Source: Deltaproteobacteria bacterium (lineage in GTDB: Bacteria; Myxococcota_A; UBA9160; UBA6930). Taken from it: 46,156 bases of DNA. Shown here piece after piece: positions 2,024-24,249 of the stretch (its first letter is position 1; each line of letters begins with the position of its first letter). The position numbers and the translations under genes were made by a program. The notes below the pieces were generated by a model, which saw only the letters and a list, made by a program, of their open reading frames with translations, searched no databases and had not been told where the DNA came from. The stretch is taken from contig JAJDAR010000309.1 in assembly GCA_029261775.1 (NCBI GenBank), positions 1-46,156 on the forward strand. Direction: 5' to 3'.

Positions 2024-3168
2024 GTCTTCCGCTGTCCGGCATCCTGGTCATCGATCTGACCCGCGTGCTGGCGGGCCCCTATTGCACGATGCTGCTCGCC
2101 GAGCTGGGCGCTCGGGTGATCAAGATCGAGAACCCGGCCGGCGGCGACGATGCCCGGCGCGTCGGCCCCTTCGTCGCGGGGCGCTCGGCCTACTTCATGT
2201 CGCTGAACCGCGGCAAGCAGAGCCTGGCCCTCGACCTCAAGGCAGACGCCGATCGCACGACCTTCGAAGCCCTGCTGGATCGGGCCGACGTGCTGGTGGA
2301 GAACTTCCGGCCGGGTGCGCTCGAGCGACTCGGCTACGGGTGGGAGACCGTGCACGAACGGTGGCCGCGCCTGATCGTCGCCCGCGCGAGCGGCTTCGGG
2401 CAGACCGGGCCCCTCCGCGAACGGCCGGCCTACGACCTGGTGGTGCAGGCGATGGGCGGGATCATGAGCCTGACCGGAGCGCCGGGCGGCGAGCCCACGC
2501 GGGTCGGCACCTCGATCGGCGACCTGGCCGCAGGCCTCTTCACGACGATCGGCGTGACCTCTGCGCTCCACCACCGCGAACGCTCCGGCGAGGCGCTCGA
2601 GGTCGACGTCGCGATGCTCGACAGCCAGGTCGCCCTGCTCGAGAACGCGATCGCCCGCTACGCGGCGACCGGCGAAGTCCCGGGACCGATCGGCTCGCGC
2701 CATCCTTCGATCACGCCCTTTCAGGCCTTCGCTGCGCAAGAAGGTCGCTTCGTCGTCGCCGCCGGGAACGATGCCTTGTTCGCCGCGCTCTGCCAGACGG
2801 TCGGACGGCCGGATCTGCCGCGCGACGAGCGCTTCGCCGACAACGCCCACCGCACCGAGCACGTGGTCGCCCTGACCGAGGAGCTGGAGGCGGTCTTCCG
2901 CACCCGACCGCTCGAGCACTGGCTCGCTCTTCTCGAGTCGGCGGGCGTACCCTGCGGTCCGATCCAGGACGTCGCCCAGGTGATGGCCCACCCGCAGGTC
3001 CAGGCGCGCCAGATGATCGTGCACGCGGACGACCCGGTGGCCGGGCGGGTCGCCATGCCCGGCAATCCGATCAAGTTCCGGGGTCGCCCCGACCCCGGCG
3101 ATCGCGCGCCGGCGCCCGAACTGGATGCCGACCGCGAGCGGATCCTCGCCGAGCTGCTGCGGGACTAG
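2020..3168 (+). CDS. CaiB/BaiF family (class III) CoA-transferase
   Basis: A 382-residue class III CoA-transferase, which moves CoA between carboxylic acids through an aspartyl-CoA intermediate. Evidence: the N-terminal DLTRVLAGPYCTMLLAELGA motif, VLVENFRPGALERLG, the YDLVVQAMGGIMSLTG block and SIGDLAAGLF, where Asp168 matches the catalytic aspartate of formyl-CoA transferase (Asp169). The frame is open far upstream of this point, but only the GTG at 2020 gives the family N-terminus and the usual GTGA overlap. It is the last gene of the operon; the next gene converges 13 nt downstream. Substrate not determinable; members act in carnitine, bile acid, oxalate or aromatic acid degradation. Confidence 0.88.
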   Translation: MSLPLSGILVIDLTRVLAGPYCTMLLAELGARVIKIENPAGGDDARRVGPFVAGRSAYFMSLNRGKQSLALDLKADADRTTFEALLDRADVLVENFRPGALERLGYGWETVHERWPRLIVARASGFGQTGPLRERPAYDLVVQAMGGIMSLTGAPGGEPTRVGTSIGDLAAGLFTTIGVTSALHHRERSGEALEVDVAMLDSQVALLENAIARYAATGEVPGPIGSRHPSITPFQAFAAQEGRFVVAAGNDALFAALCQTVGRPDLPRDERFADNAHRTEHVVALTEELEAVFRTRPLEHWLALLESAGVPCGPIQDVAQVMAHPQVQARQMIVHADDPVAGRVAMPGNPIKFRGRPDPGDRAPAPELDADRERILAELLRD

Positions 3169-3181
3169 CCCGACCCCCGGC

Positions 3182-4360
3182 TCAGCGGTCCTGGACCAGG
3201 AGCCACGCGATCCGCTCGCCGATGCGGAGCAGCGCAGGTCGCAGCTCCGCATCGAGGTCCGGGGGCGGGACGGGGCTCGGCGGGCCGGCCAGCACGGCCC
3301 GCTGCACGCGCTTGGCCGCCGCGATCTGCCGGCGATAGAACGCCTCGATCTCGTCGGCGGGCGGCGCGGCGCGTCCCTGGCGGCCGGCCTCGAGGCGCGC
3401 GGCGGCGAGCCCGGCCTCGATCACGCGGGCCTCGCGTTCGGGCACGTCGATCGGCCCTCCGCTGCGCCGCTTCGCCTCGGCGACGAGCGGCATCAGGGCC
3501 AACCGCTCCAGGACCGCCGACTCGAGGGCCGGCGCCTTCGAGGCCGTCGGCGGATGATCCTCGATGCCGGCGGCCACCCGCCAACGCTCGAGGCTCCCGT
3601 CCTGCTCCCTCGCCATCAGCCAGGCGGAGAGATCGCGGGCCAGGTCCGGAAGGTCGGCGCGCACCCAGGCCGCCTTGCGGTCGCGGCGCAGCGGACCGAT
3701 CCGCCGCAGGGGCACGGGGCTCTCGCGCTCCCAGTGCGGCGCCTCGAGGGAGTCGGTCACCACCGCGTCGGCCTTGCCTTCGAGCAGCACCGCGAGCACG
3801 TCCTCGTTGCGATCGACCGGCGTGAGCTCCGCCGCGGGAAAGCGCTCGCGGGCGACACGCTCGAGATGCCCGCCGCGATTCACAGCAATGCGTCGACCCG
3901 GCACCGAGAGGTCGGCGAGCTGGCGCAGCTCTCCCGACGCCGCGACCAGCAGCAACGGCTCCGAGAAGAGCGTCGGCACCGTGAAGGTGCCGAGGATCGA
4001 GCGCTCGGGCCGCACCGTCACGCCCGAGAGCGCGACGTCGAAACGACGCGCGCGGAGATCGCGGTGCAGCCGCGACCAGCGGAAGCGGACCCACTCGAGG
4101 GACAGGCCACGGTCGGTCGCGTAGGCGCGCGCGATCTCGACATCGAGCCCGGCGAGCTCGCCCTGGGCGTCCGTCCAGCTGAAGGGGGCGTAGTCGCCAC
4201 TGGTGCCGACGCGCAGCACCTCGCCGGAGGGCGGCTCCGCCTTCGACGCAGGGGTGGCGGGCACCTCGGAGGTCGGTGCGCGTTCGGCAGGACCGGCGGC
4301 GGCACAGCCCAGCACCAGCGTTGCGAGCGCAGCGAGCAGGCCCGGGCAGCGCGGCCTCAC
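3182..4360 (-). CDS. Lipoprotein fusing cyclohexadienyl dehydratase (PheC) and gamma-class chorismate mutase (AroQ)
   Basis: A 392-residue exported protein. Residues 1-19 form a lipoprotein signal with lipobox LVLG-Cys19. Residues ~47-265 are a periplasmic-binding-fold domain of PheC type: VGTSGDYAPFSW, FDVALSGVTVRPERS and KADAVVTDSLEAPHWE match the cyclohexadienyl dehydratase pattern (prephenate to phenylpyruvate). Residues ~280-392 match secreted AroQ-gamma chorismate mutases: Arg286 (ERL), Lys297, PIDVPEREARV (303-313) and QIAAAKRVQ (345-353). Together they would turn chorismate into phenylpyruvate outside the cytoplasm. The start is a GTG overlapping the stop of the HAD gene (GTGA); it is the only start that puts the lipobox in a normal place. 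A plain amino-acid-binding lipoprotein is the alternative for the N-terminal domain, but the C-terminal mutase motifs argue against it. Confidence 0.78.
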   Translation of the reverse strand: MRPRCPGLLAALATLVLGCAAAGPAERAPTSEVPATPASKAEPPSGEVLRVGTSGDYAPFSWTDAQGELAGLDVEIARAYATDRGLSLEWVRFRWSRLHRDLRARRFDVALSGVTVRPERSILGTFTVPTLFSEPLLLVAASGELRQLADLSVPGRRIAVNRGGHLERVARERFPAAELTPVDRNEDVLAVLLEGKADAVVTDSLEAPHWERESPVPLRRIGPLRRDRKAAWVRADLPDLARDLSAWLMAREQDGSLERWRVAAGIEDHPPTASKAPALESAVLERLALMPLVAEAKRRSGGPIDVPEREARVIEAGLAAARLEAGRQGRAAPPADEIEAFYRRQIAAAKRVQRAVLAGPPSPVPPPDLDAELRPALLRIGERIAWLLVQDR

Positions 4361-11602: not shown

Positions 11603-13189
11603 ATGCGCCTCGCGCCCACGATCCGAGCCCTCGCCATGAGCGCCTCCACGATCCGAGCCCTCGCCATGAGCGCCTCCACGATCCGAGCCCTCGCCATCAG
11701 CGCCTGTCTCGCGTTCCTCTCCGGCGGTCCGGCGCTCGCGGACCACCACGCCGACGAGAAGACCGCCGCCGGATCCGCAGGATCGGACTGGTCTCTTCCC
11801 GCCGCGGACGCCTGCAACCCGACGGGTGGTCTGCTGCGAGGCCCTCGCGCCACGAGCGAGGATGCTCCGCCTGCGCTGCCCTTCGCCCCTGGCGACACCT
11901 TCGGGCTCGAGGGCGTGGACGCCTTGAAGGACTTCCTGCCCGACTTCGTGTGGCCGCACCGCGAGCGCTTCTTCTTCGAGGGCATGCGCCTCGAGATCGG
12001 TCCCTGCTTTCGCGATTTCTCGCCGCCGGCCTTCTACCAGCAGGCGAGTGAGGCCTTTCGCGGACAAGCCAGCCTCGACGACGCCGGCGGCTTGAAGGAC
12101 TACACCGCCGGCGAGCCCTTCGCGCGCGATGCGATCGCAGCCGGCGATTCCGACGCGGGCAACCGCTGGCTCTGGAACGTGGAGTTCCGCTACCAGGGCG
12201 CCGGCTTCCAGGGCAAGTTCCGGATGACCGATCTCGTCGGGCGCACAGGTCGCGCCGAGCCCTTCGAGGGCGAGATGTTCAAGATCCAGCTGGCGCACCG
12301 GAGCGACCGGGTGGCCGACGACTACGTCGCTCCGGGCGCTCGCAAGAAGCACTTCGTGGCGGGTGGGATCTTCTTCAAGCCCTTCGACGCACGCGAGAAC
12401 TCGTGGCGACAGTTCCGCGACGTCAAGCACGAGGTCGACCCCGACCGCTCGGACGACCTGCACGCGTACCTTCCCCAGTGGCGCCGCGTGCGTCGGCTGA
12501 GCGCCGGCCAGGTCGAGGGCCTGTACATGCCCTCGTTCTCGGTCGGAGTCGTCCAGAACCAGCAGCTCACCGTGGGCGGGGGCGGCGGAGACGCGGGCGG
12601 AGCCGCCGCAGCCGGTGGCGTGACGGGCATCGGCGGCACGGTGCAGAACAAGCGCAGCGGCTACGAGGGGCTGGTCCTGCGGCCCCTGCTCTACGACACG
12701 AAGGTGCTCGGGCTGCACGACGTGCTGGCCCCGATCAACAGCAAGGTGCCCGGCTACCCGGAGAACCCGGATCGCGACTTCGGCCCCTGGGGCCTCTCCT
12801 TCGCCAGCGACACCTGGGATCTGCGCAGGGCGCTGGTGCTCGAGATGCGCGCCAAGGAGAAGACCGGAGATCTCAATGCGCGGCAGGTGCTGTACGTCGA
12901 TCTCCAGACTCTGCAGCCGCTCTACATGGCCACCTTCGACGGGCGAGACGAGATGACCAACGTCGGGCTCTACGTCGGCCGCTGGAGCGAGGATCGCGAG
13001 GGCTACCCCGCCTGGCCCGACGACGAGACCCGGCCCGTGCGCGTCATCGACTCGGTGGGAGCCGCCTTCGCCAACCTCGCCGAGTCGGGCAGCTGGCGCC
13101 GGGAATCGTGGGCGAACGTGGCCACGCCGCCCGATGACCGGACGGTCAAGCGGATGAGTTCGGTGACCCAGCTGACCAAGGGGCATTGA
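11603..13189 (+). CDS. Exported DUF1329-like protein
   Basis: A 528-residue exported protein. The signal region is expanded by three copies of TIRALAMSAS before a hydrophobic core and an ALA-D cleavage site near residue 47. The mature part resembles DUF1329 proteins (LolA/LolB-like fold, outer-membrane-associated): a WRQFRDVKHE...YLPQWRRVRRL block in the middle and RQVLYVDLQTLQPLYMATFDGRDEM near the C-terminus. There is a Gly/Ala-rich insert (~330-346). A strong AGGAAGGA ribosome site 7 nt before the ATG at 11603 supports this start. It lies 20 nt after the aldo/keto reductase, so the two are probably one operon. The role of DUF1329 is not established; the family call is by eye. Confidence 0.6.
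   Translation: MRLAPTIRALAMSASTIRALAMSASTIRALAISACLAFLSGGPALADHHADEKTAAGSAGSDWSLPAADACNPTGGLLRGPRATSEDAPPALPFAPGDTFGLEGVDALKDFLPDFVWPHRERFFFEGMRLEIGPCFRDFSPPAFYQQASEAFRGQASLDDAGGLKDYTAGEPFARDAIAAGDSDAGNRWLWNVEFRYQGAGFQGKFRMTDLVGRTGRAEPFEGEMFKIQLAHRSDRVADDYVAPGARKKHFVAGGIFFKPFDARENSWRQFRDVKHEVDPDRSDDLHAYLPQWRRVRRLSAGQVEGLYMPSFSVGVVQNQQLTVGGGGGDAGGAAAAGGVTGIGGTVQNKRSGYEGLVLRPLLYDTKVLGLHDVLAPINSKVPGYPENPDRDFGPWGLSFASDTWDLRRALVLEMRAKEKTGDLNARQVLYVDLQTLQPLYMATFDGRDEMTNVGLYVGRWSEDREGYPAWPDDETRPVRVIDSVGAAFANLAESGSWRRESWANVATPPDDRTVKRMSSVTQLTKGH
11618..11707 (+). repeat. Three tandem copies of a 30-bp unit in a signal-peptide coding region
   Basis: Units at 11618-11647, 11648-11677 and 11678-11707 are nearly identical; the third diverges at ATG to ATC and at its last bases. 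Each encodes TIRALA[MI]SA[SC]. The first two copies carry in-frame ATGs (11636, 11666) that could serve as internal starts and give a normal-length signal peptide. Confidence 0.9.
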
Positions 13190-19187: not shown

Positions 19188-20921
19188 ATGAGTGGCCCCA
19201 GCGGCGACAAGCTGATCTACGTGGACATGACCGACCAGTCCGTATCCGTGAAGGACTTCCCCGACGAGTGGAAGCTGCTCGGCGGTCGCGCCCTGTCGGC
19301 CAAGATCCTGCTCGCAGAGTGCGACCCGAGCTGTGATCCGCTCGGGCCCGACAACGTGCTCGTGATGGCGCCGGGCGTGCTCTCCGGCACGGCGGCCCCC
19401 ACCAGCGGTCGCATCTCGATCGGTGGCAAGAGCCCGCTCACCGGCGGCATCAAGGAGGCCAACACCGGCGGCCAGCCCGGCCAGCACCTGATGAAGCTGA
19501 ACGTGCGCGGCATCGTCGTGAAGGGCCAGCCGGCCGACGCGAACGCGCGCTTCGCCCTGGAGGTCACCGCCGACGATGCGAAGATCGTTGCGGCGGACGA
19601 TCACAAGGGCAAGTGGAACTATGCGCTCTGCATGGATCTGCACGAGCAGTACCCGAAGACCTCGTCCTTCATCACCTGTGGCCCGGCCGGCGAGATGCGG
19701 CTGACGGGCGCCTCGGTGGCGACGACCGATCAGGACAACCGCTACCCGGCGCGTCACGCGGCCCGCGGGGGCCTCGGTGCGGTGATGGGCTCGAAGGGTC
19801 TCAAGTACGTGATGGTCGACCCCGGCAAGTCCGGCGTCCGCCAGCCTGCCGACCGCAAGCCGTTCGGCGAGCTGTGCAAGACCTACACCAAGGACTACCT
19901 CGACGGCCCGCAGATGTTCAAGACCGGCACCAGCTCCGTGGTGCCCGTCGCCAACATGCTGCACACCTTCCCCTACAAGAACCGGGTGGAGGGCCAGAGC
20001 CCTGACGCGCAGACGCTGGACGGTGCACGCATCGTCGAGAGCTTCGAGACCCGCGGCGGCGAGATGCACAACTGCATGACCGGCTGCATCGTCAAGTGCT
20101 CGAACGTGGTCCACGACGCCCAGGGCGAGTACAAGACCTCCGCCCTCGAGTTCGAGACGCTCACCCTGCTCGGGGCCAACTGCGCCGTGGCGAGCTGGGA
20201 GGACGTGGCGGACATGGACCGGCTCTGTGACGAGGTCGGCCTCGACACGATCGAGACCGGCGCGGCCATCGCGATCCTGATGGACGCCGGCCAGCTCGAG
20301 TGGGGCGACGCCGCGGCGATGAAGAAGCTGATCGCGGAGATCCCCGAGGGCACCGATCGGGGCAAGGCGATCGGCAACGGCGCCGTGGCCACGGGCAAGT
20401 TCACCGGCCACCACCGGGTGCCGACGGGCAAGGGCCAGGCCATCCCGGCGTGGGACCCGCGGCCGCTGAAGGCGACGGGCGTCTCGTACTGCACGAGCCC
20501 GATGGGTGCCGACCACACGGCGGGCCTGATCGTGAACCCGGGCCTCCAGCCGGATCAGTTCGCGTGGGAGAGCCAGAAGGTCCAGATCGTGAACGCGGTC
20601 TGCGACTCCTCCGGTTTCTGCCAGTTCCTCCAGCCGAACCTGGACAACATCCGCGGCTTCTACGGCGCGCTCTACGGCGAAGAGGTCACACGGGAGCAGA
20701 TCCACGATCAGGGCTGGCAGTGCCTCGAGGACGAGTGGGAGTTCAATCGCCAGGCCGGCTTCACCGCGGCCGACGATCGGCTCGCCGACTGCCTCATGCA
20801 GGACGCCATCGGCGCCGAGGGCATGAAGCAGGTCTTCGATGTGCCCGCCGAGATCATCCAGGCCGTGTACAAGCGGATGCCGGCCCAGGACGACCTGTTC
20901 GAGGCCAAGGCTTCCGGCTGA
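19188..20921 (+). CDS. Aldehyde:ferredoxin oxidoreductase family protein (tungsten-type)
   Basis: A 577-residue member of the AOR family, which oxidises aldehydes or reduces acids with a tungsten bis-pterin centre and one 4Fe-4S cluster. The N-terminal pterin-binding domain is well conserved: GGRALSAKILLAE (~33-45), APGVLSGTAAPTSGR and GGKSPLTGGIKEANTGGQ. Cluster ligands appear as Cys296-x3-Cys300-x3-Cys304 and a late Cys478 in DSSGFCQF. The first spacing is x3 rather than the archaeal x2. A strong AAGGAG site precedes the ATG. It follows the MoaD-like gene and precedes the moeA pair, a typical AOR neighbourhood. No ferredoxin gene is adjacent, so the electron partner is unknown. Confidence 0.9.
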   Translation: MSGPSGDKLIYVDMTDQSVSVKDFPDEWKLLGGRALSAKILLAECDPSCDPLGPDNVLVMAPGVLSGTAAPTSGRISIGGKSPLTGGIKEANTGGQPGQHLMKLNVRGIVVKGQPADANARFALEVTADDAKIVAADDHKGKWNYALCMDLHEQYPKTSSFITCGPAGEMRLTGASVATTDQDNRYPARHAARGGLGAVMGSKGLKYVMVDPGKSGVRQPADRKPFGELCKTYTKDYLDGPQMFKTGTSSVVPVANMLHTFPYKNRVEGQSPDAQTLDGARIVESFETRGGEMHNCMTGCIVKCSNVVHDAQGEYKTSALEFETLTLLGANCAVASWEDVADMDRLCDEVGLDTIETGAAIAILMDAGQLEWGDAAAMKKLIAEIPEGTDRGKAIGNGAVATGKFTGHHRVPTGKGQAIPAWDPRPLKATGVSYCTSPMGADHTAGLIVNPGLQPDQFAWESQKVQIVNAVCDSSGFCQFLQPNLDNIRGFYGALYGEEVTREQIHDQGWQCLEDEWEFNRQAGFTAADDRLADCLMQDAIGAEGMKQVFDVPAEIIQAVYKRMPAQDDLFEAKASG

Positions 20922-20971: not shown

Positions 20972-21004
20972 GAGCGGGCAGGGGGGTCGACCCTCTGCCC
21001 GCTC
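20972..21004 (+). terminator. Strong hairpin between AOR and the moeA leader
   Basis: GAGCGGGCAGGGGG pairs with CCCTCTGCCCGCTC (14 bp with one G-T wobble) around a tight loop, 50 nt after the AOR stop. There is no run of T after it, so it may terminate weakly, protect the upstream mRNA or act as an attenuator ahead of the leader reading frames that begin at 21022. Confidence 0.5.
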
Positions 21005-21021
21005 GATCGTTCGAGGTGCCT

Positions 21022-21060
21022 GTGAGCACACACGCACTCGTGAGACCAGGAACTCGGTGA
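21022..21060 (+). CDS. Possible leader mini-ORF 1 (12 codons)
   Basis: GTG start, peptide VSTHALVRPGTR, stop TGA at 21058-21060 overlapping the next GTG. A GAGG ribosome site (21013-21016) lies 5 nt upstream. Translation is not demonstrated; the reading frame exists because of the tandem repeat. Confidence 0.35.
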   Translation: MSTHALVRPGTR

Positions 21061-21095
21061 GCACACACGCACTCGTGAGGTCGGCACGTTCGTGA
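21057..21095 (+). CDS. Possible leader mini-ORF 2 (12 codons)
   Basis: GTG start, peptide VSTHALVRSARS, stop TGA at 21093-21095 overlapping the GTG start of moeA. An AGGAA (21048-21052) lies 4 nt upstream. The first seven residues equal those of mini-ORF 1, then the frames diverge with the repeat ends. Could couple ribosomes into moeA or be a by-product of duplication. Confidence 0.35.
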   Translation: MSTHALVRSARS

Positions 21096-22354
21096 GCACG
21101 CGGGACGTTCGCATGCGCGGGTTCGCCGAGCGGGCGGACGTCGAGGAGGTGATCGACTTCCTCTCCGCCGCACTGCGGCCGCTGCCCGACGAGGACGTGG
21201 ATCTGCTCGCCTGCGCGGGCCGGGTGCTCGCTCGCAACGTGCGGGCGGAGGTGGACGTCCCCGGTTTCGCGCGCTCCGCGATGGACGGCTACGCCGTGCG
21301 GGGTGAGGACACGTTCGGCGCCTCGGAGTACGACCCGCTGGCGCTCGAGCTGCTCGGAGAGTCGATGCCGGGACGGCCCTTCGAAGGCCCGGTGGGCGCG
21401 GGCGAAGCGGTGCGCATCATGACTGGTGCGCCCGTGCCGAAAGGCGCGGACGCGGTCGCCATGGCCGAGGTCTGCGAGGAGACGGCGACCTCGGTCCGGG
21501 TCCGCGAGGCCGTCGCCCCGGGCCGCCACGTGGGCGCGCCGGGCGAGGACATCGCCGCGGGAACGACCGTCCTGCAGGCGGGTCGTCGGCTGCGACCCCA
21601 GGACGCGGGCCTGCTGGCTTCGATCGGGGTCGCGCGGGTCCCGGTGGTGCGCCGACCGCGCGTGCAGCTCGTGATCACCGGCGACGAGCTGCTGCCCCCC
21701 GGCAGCCGGCCCGAAGGCGCGCGCATCGTCGACAGCAACTCGGTGGTGATCGCAGCGCTCGTCGCCCGCGACGGCGGCGAGCTCCTGCCCCACGCGATCC
21801 TGCCCGACCGCGCCGAACGGATCTCCGAGTTGTTGGCCCGGGCTCCGGCCGACGTGCTGCTCGTCTCGGGGGGCAGCTCGGTCGGCAAGGAGGATCACGC
21901 CCCCCGGCTCGTGGCCGAGCTGGGGCAGCTCGACTTCCACGGCATCTCGATGCGGCCGTCGAGCCCGGCCGGCGTCGGACGCCTGCCGGGTGTCGAAGGA
22001 GTTGCCGACCGGCGCGTGTTCCTGCTGCCCGGCAATCCGGTCAGCTGCCTGTGCGCGTACGAGTTCTTCGCGGGTCCGGCCCTGCGTCGGCTCGGCGGCC
22101 GCCCCATGACCTGGCCACACCGCAGGGCCCGGCTCCCCCTGGCCCGCAAGATCGTCTCCGCCGTCGGCCGCACCGACTACGTGCGGGTCGCCATCGAGGC
22201 CGGCCGGGTCGTGCCTCTGGCGACCTCGGGCGCCTCGATCCTGTCTTCGACCGTGCGGGCGGCGGGAGCGGTGATCGTGCCGCGCGCCCTCGAAGGCATG
22301 CCCGAGGGCACCGAGGTCGAGGTGCTGCTCTACGACGAGGAGGAGGCCTCGTGA
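21092..22354 (+). CDS. moeA: MoeA family molybdopterin molybdenumtransferase, paralogue 1
   Basis: A 420-residue MoeA, which inserts metal into adenylylated molybdopterin. Domains follow the family: an N-terminal linker with SAMDGYAVRGEDTFGAS (~64-80), RIMTGAPVPKGADAV, then the MogA-like domain with VITGDELLPPG and SGGSSVGKEDH (~265-275), LPGNPVSCLCAYEFF and a C-terminal beta-barrel. The GTG start lies in the third copy of the tandem repeat; MRGFAERADVEEVI (Met at codon 7) is an alternative. Its stop overlaps the next moeA (GTGA). Given the context it may load tungsten for the upstream AOR. That metal choice is inference. Confidence 0.92.
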   Translation: MSTRDVRMRGFAERADVEEVIDFLSAALRPLPDEDVDLLACAGRVLARNVRAEVDVPGFARSAMDGYAVRGEDTFGASEYDPLALELLGESMPGRPFEGPVGAGEAVRIMTGAPVPKGADAVAMAEVCEETATSVRVREAVAPGRHVGAPGEDIAAGTTVLQAGRRLRPQDAGLLASIGVARVPVVRRPRVQLVITGDELLPPGSRPEGARIVDSNSVVIAALVARDGGELLPHAILPDRAERISELLARAPADVLLVSGGSSVGKEDHAPRLVAELGQLDFHGISMRPSSPAGVGRLPGVEGVADRRVFLLPGNPVSCLCAYEFFAGPALRRLGGRPMTWPHRRARLPLARKIVSAVGRTDYVRVAIEAGRVVPLATSGASILSSTVRAAGAVIVPRALEGMPEGTEVEVLLYDEEEAS

Positions 22355-24249
22355 AGCAGCAGCAGTTCCTCGAGGTGCTCGATCGGGACGAAGCGGAGCG
22401 CCGCTGGCGGGAGGCCTTGCGGGTGGGTCCCGTCGGCGAGGAGGAGGTGGCCCTGGAAGACGCCCTCGGCCGGGTGCTGGCGGACGACGTCCGGGCCGCC
22501 GTGGACGTGCCAGGCTTCGACCGCTCGAACATGGATGGCTTTGCCGTCCGGGCCCGCGACACCTTCGGAGCCTCCGAGAGCGAGCCGATCGCGCTGCAGC
22601 TGAACGACGAGACGATTCCGACCGGCGTCGCTCCCCAGACCGAGGTGCGCGAGGGCCGGGCCACCTCGATCGCCACGGGAGGCATGCTCCCCCGCGGCGC
22701 AGATGCCGTCGTTCCTGTCGAGGATACGGACGTCGACGGCGCGACGCTGATCGTCCGCCGTTCGCGGGTGCCCGGCTCCGCCGTCTCCTTCGCCGGAACC
22801 GACGTGGGAATGGGCGAGACGGTGCTCTTCGCGGGCACGCGCCTCACCTCGCGAGAGACCGGCGTGCTCGCGGCGATCGGCGCCTCCCGGGTCGCGGTCC
22901 TGCGGCGCCCCCGGGTGGCGATCCTCTCCACGGGCGACGAGATCGTGCAGCCCGGCGAGGCGATGCGACCCGGCCTGGTCTTCGACAGCAACGGGCGCAT
23001 CCTGGCCGATGCGGTGCGCGAGCTGGGGGGCGAGGCCTGGTTCCTCGGCGCTTTCCGCGACGACGAGGTTGCGCTGCGCGCCGCTCTCGACCGGGCGCTC
23101 GGCGAGGCGGATCTCGTGCTGCTCTCGGGCGGCACGTCGAAGGGCGAGGGCGACCTGAATGCGCGGGTCGTCGCGGACCTGGAGCCGGGCATCCTCGTTC
23201 ACGGCGTGGCCTTGAAGCCGGGCAAGCCGATCTGCCTCGCGGCCGCGGGAACTCGACCGGTCGTGATCCTGCCCGGCTTCCCCACCTCGGCGGTCTTCAC
23301 CTTCCACGAGTTCGTGGCCCCCGTGCTGCGCGAGATGGCCGGGCTTCCGAGCGAGGACCGCGAGTCCGTGACCGCACGTCTGGCCGTCCACACCCGGTCC
23401 GAGCGCGGCCGACTCGAGTACCTGCTCGTCGGCCTGGTGCCGCGCGCCGACGGCGGGCTTGCGGCCTACCCGATGGGCAAGGGCAGTGGCTCGGTCACCT
23501 CCTTCAGCCGCGCCGACGGCTTCCTCCGGATCGGCCGCAATACCGAGATCGTCGAGGCCGATCGGGAGGTCGAGGTCATGCGGATCGGCCGTGAGCTCGC
23601 CCCGGCGGATCTGGTCGTGATCGGGAGCCACTGCTCCGGGCTCGACGCCATCGCCGGGGCTCTCGCGCGGGAGGGCTTCCGGGTCAAGGTCATGGCCGTC
23701 GGAAGCCAGGGCGGCCTCGAAGCGGTCCGGCGCGGGGAGTGCGACGTCGCGCCGATCCATCTGCTCGACGTCGGGACCGGCGTCTACAACCGGCCCTTCG
23801 TCGGCGAGGGGATCGAGCTCGTGCACGGCTACACCCGGATGCAGGGCGTGGTGACGCGACCCGACGAGGAGCGCGACATCGCGGAGCTGCTCGACGATCC
23901 GGCGCTTCGCATGGTCAACCGCAACCGGGGCGCGGGAACCCGTGTGCTGATCGACCAGCTGCTGGGCGAGCGTCGACCGCCCGGCTACGCCTATGAGCCG
24001 CGCTCGCACTACGCCGTCGCCGCTGCCGTGGCCCAGAAACGGGCGGACTGGGGAGTCACCATCGAGCCGGTGGCCCGGCAGGCCGGCCTGCGCTTCCGGC
24101 CGCTGCAGGCCGAGCACTACGACTTCGCGGTACCGGCGGATCGGCTGGATCGCCCGGCCGTCCGCGCCCTGCGCGGCTTGTTGGAGCCGGGCAGCGAGCT
24201 TCGCAACACTCTGAAGGCGCTGGGCTTCGGCGCGGAGGACCCGCCGTGA
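22351..24249 (+). CDS. moeA: MoeA paralogue 2 fused to a periplasmic-binding-protein-like domain
   Basis: A 632-residue two-part protein. Residues ~1-405 are a full MoeA: SNMDGFAVRARDTFGAS (~52-68), SIATGGMLPRGADAVVPVED, ILSTGDEIVQPGE, LLSGGTSKGEGDLNARV (~253) and LPGFPTSAVFTFHEF. Residues ~415-632 are a substrate-binding-protein-like domain (LVVIGSHCSGLDAIAGAL, GGLEAVRRGECDVAPIHLLD, NRNRGAGTRVLIDQLLGE, DWGVTIEPVARQ), known as a fusion partner of some MoeAs and likely a cytoplasmic sensor or ligand-binding unit, as no signal peptide is present. GTGA overlaps on both sides place it in a tight operon. It is clearly distinct from the adjacent MoeA, not a recent duplicate. Confidence 0.9.
   Translation: MKQQQFLEVLDRDEAERRWREALRVGPVGEEEVALEDALGRVLADDVRAAVDVPGFDRSNMDGFAVRARDTFGASESEPIALQLNDETIPTGVAPQTEVREGRATSIATGGMLPRGADAVVPVEDTDVDGATLIVRRSRVPGSAVSFAGTDVGMGETVLFAGTRLTSRETGVLAAIGASRVAVLRRPRVAILSTGDEIVQPGEAMRPGLVFDSNGRILADAVRELGGEAWFLGAFRDDEVALRAALDRALGEADLVLLSGGTSKGEGDLNARVVADLEPGILVHGVALKPGKPICLAAAGTRPVVILPGFPTSAVFTFHEFVAPVLREMAGLPSEDRESVTARLAVHTRSERGRLEYLLVGLVPRADGGLAAYPMGKGSGSVTSFSRADGFLRIGRNTEIVEADREVEVMRIGRELAPADLVVIGSHCSGLDAIAGALAREGFRVKVMAVGSQGGLEAVRRGECDVAPIHLLDVGTGVYNRPFVGEGIELVHGYTRMQGVVTRPDEERDIAELLDDPALRMVNRNRGAGTRVLIDQLLGERRPPGYAYEPRSHYAVAAAVAQKRADWGVTIEPVARQAGLRFRPLQAEHYDFAVPADRLDRPAVRALRGLLEPGSELRNTLKALGFGAEDPP

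Follow-up and report, generated by a model that had tools for sequence, protein, structure and literature searches.

A lineage-specific tandem repeat at the probable moeA start, next to a conserved RNA hairpin

Analysis of a 46,156-nt stretch of a deltaproteobacterial draft genome (the window) suggested that a repeat array in front of moeA arose when the region where moeA initiates was duplicated in tandem, a lineage-specific and frame-neutral change that was probably kept because it does little harm and that may modestly affect translation of moeA (probability about 0.6). The repeat, its reading frames, its absence in relatives and independent analogues at other loci were all observed directly. 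Overall, the repeat is real, its origin is ordinary and a mild translational effect is possible; the surprising part of the locus is the neighboring hairpin, a promising candidate for a cis-acting RNA, so far undescribed, that serves Mo/W cofactor genes.

Repeat array and overlapping frames at the probable moeA start

The gene order at the locus is aldehyde ferredoxin oxidoreductase (AOR), hairpin, array, moeA, second moeA-like gene and TRAM-domain RNA methyltransferase. In the following feature lines, the repeat copies, the minicistrons and the modules are defined by sequence.

19188–20921, + strand: AOR gene, upstream (Pfam AFOR_N 1.7e-54, AFOR_C 4.7e-55)
20972–21004, + strand: conserved RNA hairpin before moeA (14-bp stem, 5-nt loop; 14-nt arms 93% complementary; covariation in 23 orthologues)
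21022–21044, + strand: first exact 23-nt copy
21022–21060, + strand: minicistron 1, 12 codons, MSTHALVRPGTR and stop; its TGA overlaps the next GTG as GTGA, and GAGGTG lies at 21013–21018
21040–21056, + strand: GTGAG-bounded module B (17 nt)
21057–21079, + strand: second exact 23-nt copy, spaced 35 nt from the first
21057–21095, + strand: minicistron 2, 12 codons, MSTHALVRSARS and stop; its TGA overlaps the moeA GTG, and AGGA lies at 21048–21051
21075–21091, + strand: GTGAG-bounded module C (17 nt), with the GAGGT that serves moeA and with CGGCACGTTCG, perhaps left over from the 5' end of moeA
21092–22354, + strand: moeA (MoeA_N 2.5e-47); the third, degenerate copy probably supplies its GTG start
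22351–24249, + strand: second moeA-like gene, which includes a PBP-like domain; GTGA overlap with moeA

A genome-wide search found exactly two copies of GTGAGCACACACGCACTCGTGAG, starting at 21022 and 21057, and a third copy at 21092 agrees in nine of its first ten nucleotides and diverges beyond, confirming the original prediction of two exact 23-bp copies and a partial third spaced 35 bp apart. The pentamer GTGAG occurs five times (21022, 21040, 21057, 21075 and 21092) at spacings of 18, 17, 18 and 17 nt, bounding modules in an A-B-A-C-moeA architecture. Chance is excluded as the source of the 23-nt repeat, since the longest exact local repeats in Markov sequences of the window's length reached only 11–14 nt (offsets 10–60). 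Comparison of the two 35-nt units revealed agreement at 23/23 of the first positions and at 4/12 positions of the tails, so that all eight mismatches fall within the last 12 nt (P ~2e-5, computed by hand, under an even spread over 35 positions). A single 35-nt duplication followed by neutral decay is therefore a poor fit; the confinement of the mismatches indicates either that copying proceeded module by module at GTGAG microhomology or that selection has kept the 23-mer.

Neither a second GTGAG array nor another copy of the 23-mer was found elsewhere in the 5.3-Mb draft genome, which argues against a regulon of such sites and led us to reject the repeat as a regulon site; the exact 23-mer was also absent from the viral contigs searched. 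In the window genome, aligning the upstream region locally against the moeA start gave no significant general similarity (P = 0.15). The array's likely link to moeA rests on register and on an 11-mer, CGGCACGTTCG at 21082, which matches moeA's own CGGGACGTTCG at 21101 in 10 of 11 nucleotides.

The last GTG of the array had been taken as the moeA start. This assignment is probable because the RDVRM motif just past it is conserved across the order and most relatives begin MRDVRM; the conservation of RDVRM as coding sequence led us to reject the ATG at 21113 as the start.

Both mini-frames proposed originally are present, with stop and start overlapping as GTGA at 21057–21060 and 21092–21095, and both have the Shine-Dalgarno (SD)-like sequence ascribed to them, GAGGTG before 21022 and AGGA before 21057; GAGGT stands 10 nt before 21092. 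However, because 35 is 2 mod 3, 12-codon frames ending in the next GTGA arise almost automatically: one unit length in three leaves the right remainder, and for a 35-nt unit flanked by GTGA on either side an open 12-codon frame has P = 0.88. The coupled geometry is thus no independent evidence beyond the unit length. Mini-frames that end in GTGA and have an SD match no shorter than 4 nt turn up in about 18% of random leaders, but those with a match as long as GAGGTG (6 nt) in only about 1%, so that frame 1 would not be expected to have so good an SD as a matter of course. Predicted start-site accessibility was alike across the three GTGs and does not discriminate among them, and a promoter scan of the locus found no promoter.

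The conserved hairpin upstream of moeA

The strong hairpin reported just before the array is present, and a comparison of 49 moeA loci found it at roughly half of them. In an alignment of 23 orthologues, 94% of stem cells pair and both sides change in 7 of the 14 pairs; the covariation score exceeded that of all 500 shuffles, a control that leaves relatedness in, and sliding the partners lowered pairing from 94% to 47–56%. The base of the stem, CGGGCAG/CTGCCCG, is nearly fixed, the loop and outer pairs are variable and the flanks covary. One-sided changes correspond to G-U pairs on the moeA strand, and the + strand outscored the − strand at each locus where both gave a score.

A covariance model detected the hairpin in 27 of 61 genomes of the order, in searches that took in the genomes used to build the model. 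In all 24 genomes checked (E <= 9.0e-5, moeA on the same contig), the hairpin lies 4–100 nt 5' of the moeA match and on its strand; the best matches in the other three genomes (9.2e-5 to 8.4e-4) are located elsewhere. At an E of 1e-4, the hairpin was not found in any of 11 genomes from other orders of the class. These genome searches, in which nearly all genomes had it before moeA alone, together with comparisons within the genus, led us to reject a stock terminator reused genome-wide. A role as the 3' end of the AOR gene is disfavored by two loci, L041 and L059, in which the hairpin stays with moeA and no AOR was detected upstream, and a DNA operator is disfavored by the varying spacing of the arms, including an extended stem at L064, and by the strand-sense G-U pairs.

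No Rfam family reached its gathering score on the hairpin, and the Moco/Tuco riboswitch covariance model gave no match up to E = 5. That riboswitch is likewise an RNA structure before Mo/W cofactor genes, but it forms a multistem junction (PMC2408646), whereas the window has a single hairpin lacking an Rfam match. In most orthologues TTT follows the stem after ~3–6 nt, where the window has only GATCGTTC, and a terminator scanner found no intrinsic terminator at the window locus. The simplest role suggested by the sequence would be to terminate some of the transcripts and so keep moeA expression below that of AOR; such partial termination leaves the fixed stem sequence unexplained.

Array and leader frames in relatives, and independent duplications

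The original prediction held that relatives lacking the repeat in an equal moeA context would count against a functional chain, and comparison of moeA 5' regions revealed just that: the repeat is absent, moeA is kept and many of the loci lie behind the same hairpin. With up to three mismatches allowed, the 23-mer was found in none of 60 relatives of the order, four congeners included. The moeA genes of these congeners are 79–81% identical to that of the window, and their hairpin-to-moeA spacers measure 24, 24, 57 and 58 nt, compared to 87 nt in the window. In three of them (G002, G003 and G004) moeA starts with TTG and a mini-frame of the array kind is absent; no leader peptide is conserved among the relatives compared. 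At the G002 locus (L007), the moeA frame is seemingly interrupted soon after its start, with a protein match from residue 31 and an in-frame stop, reflecting either real damage or a draft error.

The fourth congener, G001, is perhaps the sister species of the window genome: the AOR tree places the two side by side with moderate support (85/95), and the moeA tree does not resolve their relative position. Its moeA (locus L034) starts GTGAGC, and an SD-preceded 11-codon ATG frame ends in that GTGA. This frame is weak evidence for a functional leader, since ~18% of random leaders, as noted above, carry a comparable frame whose SD match is 4 nt or longer, and it showed no significant similarity to the moeA start.

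A scan for repeats over 155 start windows of moeA and moeA2 placed the window array (23 nt, unit 35) second to a longer run in G010 (locus L038; 25 nt, unit 32), a member of the same family in another genus; a third long run, at L102, was discarded as a repetitive coding tail. In G010, GAGGCCCCGGCATGAGACAGCAG is duplicated in tandem at 32 nt at the moeA/moeA2 junction (4245–4313), such that moeA stops at ATGA and is followed by an 11-codon frame, MRQQRLAEAPA, that stops at the ATGA of moeA2. A pattern search found this duplication in G010 alone among 80 genomes of the order; it is absent in the congener G013. The prediction that no such geometry had been described stands insofar as we found no duplicated coupled start region in the literature, but G010 supplies an analogue in the same operon, and termination-reinitiation at overlapping stop and start codons is well described (PMC6728339, PMC10666635).

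Another duplication precedes moeA in G022 (locus L068, ~2960–3030), where tandem copies of a 31-nt unit bearing the SD GAGGTGCCC and the start yield a frame of 12 codons whose stop lies 5 nt inside moeA. This moeA copy sits behind a second AOR operon of G022, its upstream region aligns locally with the moeA start at a significant level, unlike in the window genome and L034, and the duplication was found in G022 alone among 80 genomes. In G035 (locus L025), four 17-nt units resembling CGGGAGCACCTGGAACT lie between hairpin and moeA without start/stop overlaps; G059 (L164), of the same genus, has no array. The L025 and window arrays align over ~57 nt (matched by 0/2000 dinucleotide shuffles and 1/2000 column permutations), for a pair picked after viewing 155 windows, and their likeness could reflect shared origin, a shared site or chance. 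All of these duplications are singletons at the species level, as expected of small tandem duplications that come and go.

Proposed mechanism and alternative explanations

We propose that duplication of the moeA initiation region gave rise to the GTGAG-bounded modules A-B-A-C-moeA, and that the 35-nt unit, being 2 mod 3, would make the extra starts open two 12-codon frames, each stopping at the next GTG. Initiation at 21022 could thus be followed by a stop and a new start at 21057, then by a second such step at 21092. In general, reading from the new start of an NTGA-bearing unit of 2 mod 3 would end at the TGA of the following copy, where the ribosome would be handed to the next start, whereas a unit of 0 mod 3 would lengthen the protein and one of 1 mod 3 would be read in the third frame past the start until a chance stop. 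Units of 35 and 32 nt are both 2 mod 3 and so keep the coupling intact, and the 31-nt unit of L068 is rescued by an early stop. Since the termination-reinitiation register is preserved, such duplications could be tolerated without any need for function. Translation of the mini-frames, reinitiation and the smallness of the effect are all inferred, and an effect of the array on moeA translation is plausible. The idea that the initiation region was duplicated and then retained for translation divides: the duplication and the coupling geometry are supported, and retention for such an effect is weakened by four congeners and 56 further relatives of the order that keep moeA but do without the repeat.

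We consider it unlikely that successive minicistrons form a selected chain that loads and relays ribosomes, raising or setting moeA translation past the terminator-like hairpin. The SD-like sites of frames 1 and 2 have a more favorable spacing than the GAGGT of moeA itself, which lies 10 nt from its start, the 23-mer is kept exactly where the 12-nt tails are not, and G001 has its own frame ending in the moeA GTGA; yet the other three congeners show no conservation, GTGA-ending frames with an SD are common in random leaders, and the G001 frame does not resemble the moeA start. Similarly doubtful is a broader proposal, that recurrent, frame-filtered duplication of NTGA-overlapping starts gives operons chains of coupled minicistrons tuning the next gene; if true, a new coupling step could be gained in one mutational event, since units of 2 mod 3 are self-consistent. 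The five GTGAG repeats, 17–18 nt apart, could instead be a binding-site array for a DNA regulator or RNA-binding protein, with incidental reading frames, as the alignable 17-nt array at the same place in G035 might suggest. This is improbable, however, given that the array is single-copy in its genome, that the 23-mer is missing from congeners and any array from the genus mate of G035, and that the L025 comparison was chosen after inspection.

That the array attenuates cofactor synthesis through leader peptides, as the original prediction had offered as its other option, is very improbable. Short frames do adjoin a strong hairpin, but the hairpin lies 5' of both and is transcribed before them, so their translation cannot decide its formation; moreover, the peptides contain no run of a sensed residue, relatives without the array conserve the hairpin, and the Moco/Tuco riboswitch is not matched. 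The chance that the repeat is an assembly artefact is slight. The draft comprises 578 contigs and assembly of short tandem repeats is error-prone, but with 12-nt tails that differ between the units, collapse or false expansion is unlikely, and a 35-nt unit is shorter than ordinary sequencing reads.

Comparison with known systems places the tandem duplication near established translational coupling. Short stop/start overlaps mediate tight coupling by termination-reinitiation in bacteria and archaea (PMC6728339, PMC10666635), with further support in PMC12548453. The array shares with these systems the ATGA or GTGA common to stop and start, the −4 nt overlap spacing and SD-like sites inside the upstream frame; it differs in having two upstream frames in series, each of 12 codons, which stem from a lineage-specific duplication and encode no conserved product. 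Like mgtQ, an intergenic small open reading frame before mgtB that promotes downstream translation, it sets short frames between genes of an operon, with a possible influence on initiation at the start that follows, but mgtQ is reported to act via alternative stem-loops and specific codons (PMC8092293), neither of which was seen at the window locus. If the chain is translated, it would offer a natural test both of how far a termination-reinitiation relay can run through very short frames and of reading-frame filtering of gene-junction duplications.

Elsewhere in the window, a 30-nt unit is present in three nearly identical copies (11616–11705) at the start of an open reading frame (11603–13189), repeating TIRALAMSAS in an N-terminal, signal-peptide-like region.
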